From a virus, in the IMG/VR virus record IMGVR_UViG_3300010413_000002, positions 64,001 to 122,666 of that record: 58,666 nt of DNA, one strand, 5' to 3'. Positions 45,236-46,884 of the stretch are shown here, one piece after another. The position numbers and the translations under genes are program-made. Positions within the stretch are counted from its first letter, which is position 1, and the number at the start of each line of letters is the position of its first letter. Below the pieces are notes generated by a model. The model was not told where the DNA came from, made no database searches, and saw only the letters and a program-made list of their open reading frames with translations.

Positions 45236-45265
45236 TTGACTTTTATTTTTTATTTATTATATAAT
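45236..45265 (+). promoter_or_regulatory. Sigma70-like promoter of the YqeY/Thg1 operon
   Basis: TTGACT (45236-45241), an 18-nt spacer and TATAAT (45260-45265) lie 26 nt before the ATG at 45291. It would transcribe the 85-residue protein, YqeY, tRNA-Cys, the Thg1-like gene, tRNA-Phe and the following genes. Confidence 0.6.
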
Positions 45266-45290
45266 ACTTTTATTAAAAAAATTAAAACAA

Positions 45291-45548
45291 ATGAAATATA
45301 AAAAAGTTTCAGAAAAAAAATTTAAAGAATTTATAAAAAATAATTCTTTAACTAAATTTGTAGAAAAAAATAGAGTTGACAAATTAAGCTTAATTTTTTT
45401 TAAAGATTCTTCTGAGGAAATTATAGCCAAATACTATAAAGATCCAGAAAAAAAAGAAACTTTTGGATTTTCAATAAAAAAGGATTATAATGAAAATATT
45501 AAACCAACTAAAAGTATTGGCAACAAAATATCTAAAAGAAAAAAATAA
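45291..45548 (+). CDS. Hypothetical protein before yqeY
   Basis: An 85-residue basic protein (KKVSEKKFKEFIKNN, then FFKDSSEEIIAKYYKDP). It is not assigned to a family. It is the first gene after the promoter at 45236 and overlaps the yqeY start by 59 nt in another frame, so translation is probably coupled. Its place suggests a link to tRNA metabolism, but nothing in the sequence shows it. Confidence 0.5.
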   Translation: MKYKKVSEKKFKEFIKNNSLTKFVEKNRVDKLSLIFFKDSSEEIIAKYYKDPEKKETFGFSIKKDYNENIKPTKSIGNKISKRKK

Positions 45549-45915
45549 AGAATATCTAATAGCAACAAGAAATATAATAAACGCACTTCAAAATAAACAA
45601 AAAGACAAAAAAAACAACCTAACTGAACAAGAAGAAATTCAAGTTTTGAAAAATCTAAGAAAAAAATCATTAGAATCAATAGAAGCCTACAAAAAAGGAA
45701 ATCGTCAAGATTTAGTTAAACTAGAAAAGATTGATTTAAAAATCATAGAACAATTTTTACCAAAAGAATTATCCGAAGAAAAAACTAAAGAGATTATTGA
45801 AAAAGTAATTCAAAAATTAAATACTAAAGATATAGGTTTAATTATGAAAGAGTTAAAACAGTATAAAAATATTAATATGGGTCTTGCTTCTAAAATAATT
45901 AGAACCTTAATATAA
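45490..45915 (+). CDS. yqeY: GatB/YqeY-domain protein
   Basis: A 141-residue protein, the size of bacterial YqeY. The pattern EYLIATRNIINALQNKQ, LTEQEEIQVLKNLRKKSLES, AYKKGNRQDLVKLEKIDLKI, EQFLPKELSEEKTKEIIEKV and a final MGLASKIIRTLI follows the YqeY family along its whole length. The domain is also the tRNA-binding tail of GatB in the Glu/Asp-tRNA amidotransferase. The free protein's role is not settled. Its stop codon is the first base pair region of the tRNA-Cys gene. A phage copy beside tRNA genes is unusual. Confidence 0.85.
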   Translation: MKILNQLKVLATKYLKEKNKEYLIATRNIINALQNKQKDKKNNLTEQEEIQVLKNLRKKSLESIEAYKKGNRQDLVKLEKIDLKIIEQFLPKELSEEKTKEIIEKVIQKLNTKDIGLIMKELKQYKNINMGLASKIIRTLI

Positions 45916-45985
45916 ACTAGGTGGCAGAAGGGTTATGCAACGGTCTGCAAAACTGTTTATGCGAGTTCAAATCTCGTCCTAGTTT
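45915..45985 (+). tRNA. tRNA-Cys (GCA)
   Basis: Acceptor AACTAGG/CCTAGTT, anticodon stem ACGGT/ACTGT with loop CTGCAAA (GCA), T-loop TTCAAAT. Discriminator base is T, as in tRNA-Cys. Its first base is the last base of the yqeY stop codon. No CCA is encoded. Confidence 0.9.
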
Positions 45986-45999
45986 CAAACCAAAATAAA

Positions 46000-46782
46000 A
46001 TGAATGGAAAAAATATTAAATATTATGAATTGATTCAAAATAATGAAGTTATAATTCCTAATTTACCTTTATATATTAGAATTGATGGAAGAAGTTTCCA
46101 TGTATTTACAAAAGGTTTCCAAAAGCCATTTGATTTAGATTTTATGAAAATAATGCAAAAAACTACTTCAGAATTAATTAAGGAAACAAAAGCTTGTATT
46201 GGTTATACTCAATCTGATGAAATAAGTTTAGCTTTTTATCCTAAAGACAATAATGAAATTTTTTTATTTGGAGGAAGAAAATTTAAATTAATCTCAGTCT
46301 TTTCTTCTCTTGCTACAAGTATTTTTATAAAAGAATGTTTAAAATCTAAAAATAAATTAATAAAAGAAAGAACTAAAAAAATTAATGTTTCTTTTGATTG
46401 TAGAATATATCAACTTCCAAATATACAAGAATTATTTAATGTATTTAAATGGAGAGAAGATGACGCAGTAAAAAATTCAATTAATATGCTTGCTCAAAGC
46501 CTATATAAACACAAAGAACTTCAAAACAAAAATCAAACAGAGCTTCAAGATATGATCTACGATAAAGGTTTAAATTGGAACAATTGCATTCCTGATTTTA
46601 AAAGAGGAACTTTTTTTGTTAAAGTCTTTAAAAAAAGAAAAGTTAAAAAAGAATATTTAAACAAATTTAAAATTAAAAATAAATTTTATTTTAGAGCAAA
46701 AATTGAAAAATTAAATTTAGAAGAAAATAACGGTATAACCATTGAAAAATTCAATGAATTTTATAAAAATCTTGATTATTAA
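46000..46782 (+). CDS. thg1: Thg1-like protein (tRNA 3'-5' polymerase family)
   Basis: A 260-residue protein. LYIRIDGRSFHVFTKGFQKP (Asp29 metal ligand), IGYTQSDEISLAFY (Asp73-Glu74) and GRKFKLISVFSSLATSIF are the conserved core of tRNA-His guanylyltransferase/Thg1-like proteins. These add nucleotides in the 3'-5' direction to tRNA 5' ends. Bacterial and phage members are mostly repair enzymes. The phage tRNA-His already encodes G-1, which favours repair of truncated tRNA 5' ends over G-1 addition. It sits between tRNA-Cys and tRNA-Phe. Confidence 0.88.
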   Translation: MNGKNIKYYELIQNNEVIIPNLPLYIRIDGRSFHVFTKGFQKPFDLDFMKIMQKTTSELIKETKACIGYTQSDEISLAFYPKDNNEIFLFGGRKFKLISVFSSLATSIFIKECLKSKNKLIKERTKKINVSFDCRIYQLPNIQELFNVFKWREDDAVKNSINMLAQSLYKHKELQNKNQTELQDMIYDKGLNWNNCIPDFKRGTFFVKVFKKRKVKKEYLNKFKIKNKFYFRAKIEKLNLEENNGITIEKFNEFYKNLDY

Positions 46783-46808
46783 TTTTTTTAAATTAATATA
46801 AAATTATT

Positions 46809-46884
46809 GGCATAGTAGCTCAGTTGGTAGAGCAGAGGACTGAAAATCCTTGTGTCAGCGGTTCAAATCCGCTCTTTGCCACCA
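46809..46884 (+). tRNA. tRNA-Phe (GAA)
   Basis: Acceptor GGCATAG/CTTTGCC with one mismatch, anticodon stem GAGGA/TCCTT with loop CTGAAAA (GAA), T-arm with TTCAAAT, and an encoded ACCA end. Confidence 0.9.

Follow-up and report, generated by a model that had tools for sequence, protein, structure and literature searches.

A phage locus that places yqeY, tRNA-Cys, a thg1-like gene and tRNA-Phe in one apparent transcription unit

A role in RNA repair was proposed for phage Thg1 in 2010 (PMC2904730) and in 2021 (Iyer et al., PMC7824862). In the jumbo-phage systems treated in these papers, neither of which mentions YqeY, Thg1 is found together with RNA ligases, CCA enzymes, RlaP and PNK, a combination that the authors explain as counter-defence. 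The Xanthomonas jumbo phage XacN1, described in 2018 and 384,670 bp in length, encodes tRNAs for all 20 amino acids, two Thg1 copies, a YqeY-family protein (ORF360, called glutamyl-tRNA amidotransferase), a CCA enzyme, a PNKP, Hen1 and peptidyl-tRNA hydrolase (PMC5852040). In Brizo and pVp-1 (Ermolyevavirinae) yqeY, annotated as tRNA amidotransferase, lies inside a tRNA array, with 39 to 85 bases separating it from the closest tRNA gene. Among Thg1-like proteins, BtTLP prefers 5'-truncated tRNAs (PMC3701042), and the same preference is shared by every bacterial or archaeal TLP studied; bacterial TLPs have clear 5'-repair activity in vitro and an unproven biological role, and TLPs are able to add G-1 opposite C73 (PMC6471195). 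For standalone YqeY no established function was found in the literature, while the related YqeY domain of GatB anchors tRNA (PMC4027206).

The locus described here belongs to a large, AT-rich phage. The analysed stretch of 58,666 bases, referred to as the window, comprises bases 64001-122666, the second half of a 122,666-bp IMG/VR record (IMGVR_UViG_3300010413_000002), and coordinates are those of the window unless stated otherwise. Like XacN1, this phage combines a complete tRNA set with the Thg1 and YqeY families, a CCA enzyme and PNKP; however, the XacN1 genes are scattered, whereas here yqeY, thg1 and two tRNAs are joined in a single unit. The record, at about 123 kb, also differs from the jumbo-phage repair systems in having thg1 co-directional with yqeY and tRNAs, and from Brizo and pVp-1, in which neither Thg1 nor a CCA enzyme was found. 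The novelty implied by the earlier note does not hold for the components, since Thg1 is catalogued in 125 phages and both the repair proposals and the description of the XacN1 gene set precede this work; all of the parts, and the idea of repair, are already known from phages. The novelty lies in the compact arrangement, in which yqeY, tRNA-Cys, thg1 and tRNA-Phe follow one another within a single apparent unit; it was seen once and without conservation.

The unit comprises a promoter, ORF85, yqeY, tRNA-Cys, the thg1-like gene, tRNA-Phe and three further ORFs, in this order, with lysis-type genes on one side and a convergent minus-strand block on the other. Each feature that the earlier note had named, from the promoter to tRNA-Phe, was recovered at its position:

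45236..45265, plus strand: sigma70-like promoter TTGACT-18-TATAAT (consensus only)
45291..45548, plus strand: ORF85, an 85-aa orphan that overlaps the yqeY start (codon score)
45490..45915, plus strand: yqeY, 141 aa (PF09424, phrog_1460, phmmer, AlphaFold2, Foldseek)
45915..45986, plus strand: tRNA-Cys(GCA), without encoded CCA (55.5 bits)
46000..46782, plus strand: thg1-like gene (TLP type), 260 aa (PF04446, phrog_4717, PDB, AlphaFold2/Foldseek)
46809..46884, plus strand: tRNA-Phe(GAA), encoded CCA (70.1 bits)
46900..47145, plus strand: orphan ORF, probably on the same transcript as the yqeY-thg1 unit (ORF listing)
47138..47863, plus strand: phrog_10081 family protein, probably on that transcript as well (E=3e-67)
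47848..48219, plus strand: ORF123, the final gene before the convergent minus-strand genes (ORF listing)

The codon scores of the ORFs across the unit are those of phage genes, with the highest value (0.60) in ORF85. This ORF has no Pfam match, and no homolog of it or of the ORF at 46900-47145 was present in the fetched loci. SPbeta-like, Clostridioides and Enterococcus phages encode relatives of the phrog_10081 protein. That it belongs to a conserved module was considered and rejected, as the relatives' loci contain no homolog of ORF85 or of the 46900 ORF and tRNAs are rare there. PHROGs labels the family as a transposase, a putative assignment.

The promoter agrees with the consensus at 11 of 12 positions and is the best site of the region, and no terminator-like site is predicted within 43900-48300. 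From the promoter consensus and the gene spacing we infer that the unit may be co-transcribed. The earlier note had ended the unit at tRNA-Phe; however, three closely spaced co-directional ORFs follow without a terminator-like site, and thus the unit probably continues to about 48219. Near-perfect TTGAC..TATAAT sites number five in the window, against 0.29 expected. Such sites occur on the minus strand at 5696, 6348, 7571, 15161 and 52640, that at 7571 directly preceding the genes for tRNA-Met and tRNA-Pro.

The yqeY stop codon and tRNA-Cys do share a base, as previously claimed: TAA occupies 45913-45915, and its final A doubles as the first nucleotide of the tRNA, A1, paired to U72. That 5' cleavage by RNase P would cut within the stop codon is therefore a direct reading of the sequence. 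As a consequence, yqeY would have to be translated before tRNA release or in competition with it. Zero-gap junctions between ORFs and tRNAs are seen in other phage tRNA arrays too, so the overlap may be a simple effect of packing.

Structures of both proteins were predicted, a check that the earlier note had proposed, and they correspond to the BtTLP fold and to solved YqeY structures, respectively. The Thg1-like protein has the Thg1/TLP catalytic fold, with matches to PF04446 (E=3e-31) and phrog_4717 (E=1e-68) in profile searches and an AlphaFold2 model (pLDDT 91.8) whose top Foldseek match is 4kgm (3e-17). The Asp and Asp-Glu metal ligands previously recognised are indeed in place as D29, D73 and E74; they are invariant across 28 aligned phage proteins, as are S72, R27, K96 and R135. 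The activation lysine, K42, is kept in the window protein and is Arg in many phage homologs, while M163 occupies the site of an Asn in eukaryotic Thg1. The HINNLYN motif that marks the eukaryotic-type tRNA-His guanylyltransferase is absent, the site reading KNSINM. In eukaryotic Thg1 this motif contacts the His anticodon. The closest solved structure by sequence is that of BtTLP (PDB 4kgk, 1e-28, compared with 3e-14 for the best eukaryotic Thg1). Because the nearest structure is BtTLP, HINNLYN is missing and the catalytic residues are kept, the protein is assigned to the bacterial Thg1-like (TLP) type. It shares with BtTLP (PDB 4kgk, 4kgm; PMC3701042) the fold, the two-metal carboxylates, the activation lysine and serine, and the TLP-type methionine; it differs in being phage-encoded, with a longer C-terminal part, about 30% identity over the full alignment and an activity that is predicted.

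The yqeY product is a full-length YqeY-family protein. It matches PF09424 over profile positions 6-140 of 143 (E=3e-23, 83 bits against a cut-off of 27), phrog_1460 (7e-18) and, in phmmer, PDB 8xjg (3e-13). The single-sequence AlphaFold2 model (pLDDT 92.7) has the all-helical two-part fold of the family, and Foldseek aligned it with 8xje, 1ng6 and 8xjg at E about 1e-6, with a TM-score of 0.81 for 8xje. These structures come from Campylobacter, Bacillus and Vibrio, and the bacterial proteins have the same fold and full length as the phage YqeY, in which tRNA binding is putative. By its likeness to the C-terminal GatB domain, the phage protein probably binds tRNA.

The phage has 22 tRNA genes covering all 20 amino acids, of which 21 were predicted by ARAGORN and one, tRNA-Trp, by Rfam; the other half of the record contains no tRNA genes. 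The tRNA-Cys and tRNA-Phe of the unit are each the sole copy for their amino acid, and the remaining genes are distributed as follows:

2687..2759, plus strand: tRNA-Glu(TTC)
3727..5060, plus strand: main array, with tRNAs for Tyr, Trp, His, Leu (two), Ser, Lys, Arg, Asn, Ile, Thr, Asp, Val, Gln and Gly
7385..7535, minus strand: tRNA-Met and tRNA-Pro, preceded by a TTGACA-17-TATAAT promoter
14738..14812, minus strand: tRNA-Ala(TGC)
49573..49649, minus strand: tRNA-Ile(GAT)

The tRNA-Trp gene (3852-3922), missed by ARAGORN, has an unusual T loop. A stretch resembling tRNA-Ser(UGA), recognised by eye at about 4588-4676 between tRNA-Ile and tRNA-Thr, was below E=1 in Rfam; as no program scored it as a tRNA it was left out of the count, and it is possibly a decayed gene. 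Mismatches in the acceptor stem occur in tRNA-Phe (46809-46884; U5-U68) and in tRNA-Leu(UAG) (4099-4183; U6-U67).

As the earlier note had stated, tRNA-His encodes G-1, which lies opposite C73, so its maturation by Thg1 is not needed. None of the 22 tRNAs has a disrupted pair at acceptor positions 1-3, which rules out the 5' editing of encoded mismatches as the task of the enzyme, and encoded CCA is missing from seven. Since G-1 is encoded and the first three pairs are intact throughout, the likeliest job of the Thg1-like protein would be the repair of 5'-truncated tRNAs. The features of the TLP branch and the encoded G-1 favour, at the level of sequence and predicted fold, the reading of tRNA 5'-end repair that had been put forward before.

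Further enzymes of RNA repair are encoded outside the unit. Genes for an Rnl2-type ligase, a Pnkp and a CCA-adding enzyme lie elsewhere in the record, so that phage tRNAs, a CCA enzyme, an RNA ligase, PNK and Thg1 are found in a single genome; the RlaP-type gene lies in the window:

8351..9238, minus strand: RlaP-type nucleotidyltransferase (RNA repair; PF10127 5e-22, phrog_388 6e-48)
28399-30966 of the record: Pnkp, 855 aa, with kinase, phosphatase and ligase domains

Of 34 Thg1-phage records, those of this phage and XacN1 were the only two with a PNKP ligase match above the cut-off. Unlike XacN1, the 122,666-bp record, which is possibly incomplete, gave no match to PF12623 (Hen1_L) for Hen1, the partner of Pnkp. 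The window also encodes an 809-aa DNA methyltransferase (10231-12660), residues 80-455 of which match inserts from families of helicases and ribonucleotide reductases and probably represent an intein.

The repair task is supported by the presence, in the same genome, of the all-20 tRNA set, the CCA-adding enzyme, Rnl2, a full Pnkp and RlaP. With moderate confidence we regard the unit as one component of a phage kit, spread over the genome, for supplying tRNAs and maintaining them in the face of degradation or cleavage by the host. The analysis establishes the genes, their protein families and folds, the catalytic residues, the tRNA set and the company that Thg1 keeps with CCA enzymes in phages; co-transcription, catalysis, the substrates and the pressure from host nucleases are proposed. 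Host-type RNA polymerase would produce a single transcript from the promoter at 45236, and RNase P together with 3' processing would free tRNA-Cys and tRNA-Phe, the cut at the 5' end of tRNA-Cys taking off the final base of the yqeY stop. The Thg1-like protein would activate a 5'-shortened tRNA end with ATP or GTP and extend it in the 3'-to-5' direction, with the undamaged 3' acceptor strand as template. Rebuilding of 3' ends would fall to the CCA-adding enzyme, while internal breaks would be repaired by Pnkp, Rnl2 and RlaP. YqeY would bind tRNA, its role being the least certain part of the proposed mechanism.

No close relatives of the phage were found in IMG/VR by single-protein scans with the terminase, a sheath-like protein, Thg1 and YqeY, nor in GTDB by a scan with Thg1. 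The neighbourhood was compared in 86 other Thg1-phage records, some of them near-duplicates. A yqeY gene is present in 13 of these records, always more than 13 kb from thg1, and none has the two paired within that distance. The search for conserved neighbourhoods suggested in the earlier note thus gave a divided result: the pairing was not found again, but linkage of each gene alone to tRNAs was observed in other phages. It may be that yqeY and thg1 are independent cargo accreted by chance at a shared insertion site flanked by the lysis genes and the convergent block, each being useful or neutral by itself, with no joint function. The separation of the two genes in other phages fits this explanation, as do the orphan status of ORF85 and the 46900 ORF, the affiliation of the phrog_10081 neighbour with unrelated temperate phages, and the tight packing of tRNAs and ORFs elsewhere, for example in Brizo, where ORFs abut tRNAs. 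It accounts less well for the short distance, a few tens of bases, that separates each gene from a tRNA gene, for the independent ties of YqeY and Thg1 to tRNA and for the full set of repair genes in the genome, and we consider it possible but doubtful.

The ties to tRNA vary among phages. Of 69 lineages, 7 have a thg1 gene no more than 300 bases away from a tRNA (3.5 expected, p=0.03), only weakly above expectation, and the adjacency of yqeY to tRNAs is not significant (4 of 19, 2.3 expected, p=0.16); strong adjacency as a general rule was therefore rejected. Vibriophages of the Ermolyevavirinae and one metagenomic phage have the yqeY gene embedded in a tRNA array, and it adjoins an RNA ligase gene in Vibrio phage D69. 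From proteins identified by eye, it lies near CCA and macro-domain genes in Erwinia-type jumbo phages, and in further phages its surroundings include an RtcB-like gene or genes resembling SmpB/IF3. In phages G, FADO, BcoS-136 and XacN1 yqeY has no link to tRNA or tRNA-repair genes. In phage D69 thg1 is located within about 5 kb of genes for tRNA nucleotidyltransferase, a nucleotidyltransferase, RNA ligase and PNK.

The association of Thg1 with 3'-end repair was examined in 35 large-phage records selected independently of Thg1. CCA enzymes are encoded by 5 of 6 Thg1-positive and 3 of 29 Thg1-negative records (p=0.001), and the co-occurrence persists after relatives are collapsed (p=0.004 to 0.02); among Thg1-phage records overall, 18 of 34 have a CCA enzyme. 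In phages, the genes most often found beside thg1 include those of RNA ligase families, which are absent from the list of families for distant genes; a direct test with cruder single-sequence queries was borderline, with 11 of 521 genes near thg1 and 1 of 285 far from it (p=0.065). In phage record L090 (4598-6774) the gene for a CCA-adding enzyme shares 4 bases with the start of thg1, the enzymes for 3'-end and 5'-end tRNA repair being apparently translationally coupled.

The locus might alternatively serve only the translation of AT-rich phage genes, the tRNAs supplementing host pools, with YqeY as an accessory, Thg1 as a minor maturation aid and no anti-defence role. Codon supplementation is a standing hypothesis for phage tRNAs and was favoured for XacN1 (PMC5852040), and coverage of all 20 amino acids agrees with it; however, the break-repair enzymes Pnkp, Rnl2 and RlaP fit damage better than plain supplementation, making this explanation unlikely. 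That the Thg1-like protein instead maintains G-1 on host or phage copies of tRNA-His that have lost it is highly improbable, for although the family is annotated as tRNA-His guanylyltransferase and TLPs can add G-1 opposite C73 (PMC6471195), the base present in the phage tRNA-His, this tRNA already carries G-1 in its gene, HINNLYN is lacking and characterised TLPs favour 5'-truncated tRNAs over full-length tRNA-His (PMC6471195, PMC3701042).

The phage places a standalone YqeY beside tRNA and tRNA-repair genes. YqeY could be the tRNA-holding partner of the Thg1-like polymerase in end repair, a specific role that we rate as very unlikely. If it were true, yqeY, thg1 and the tRNAs would be coupled through their co-expression, and the base shared by the stop codon and tRNA-Cys would tie the translation of yqeY to the release of the tRNA. 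The presentation of tRNAs for 5'-end quality control would then be the first function for standalone YqeY, which is conserved in bacteria. The selection acting on such phage kits is likely to come from tRNA-cleaving host defences. Phages that combine a TLP with CCA enzymes, ligases and PNK represent a natural setting for testing the biological role of TLPs, and the statistical link between phage Thg1 and CCA enzymes offers a testable general pattern beyond this single locus.
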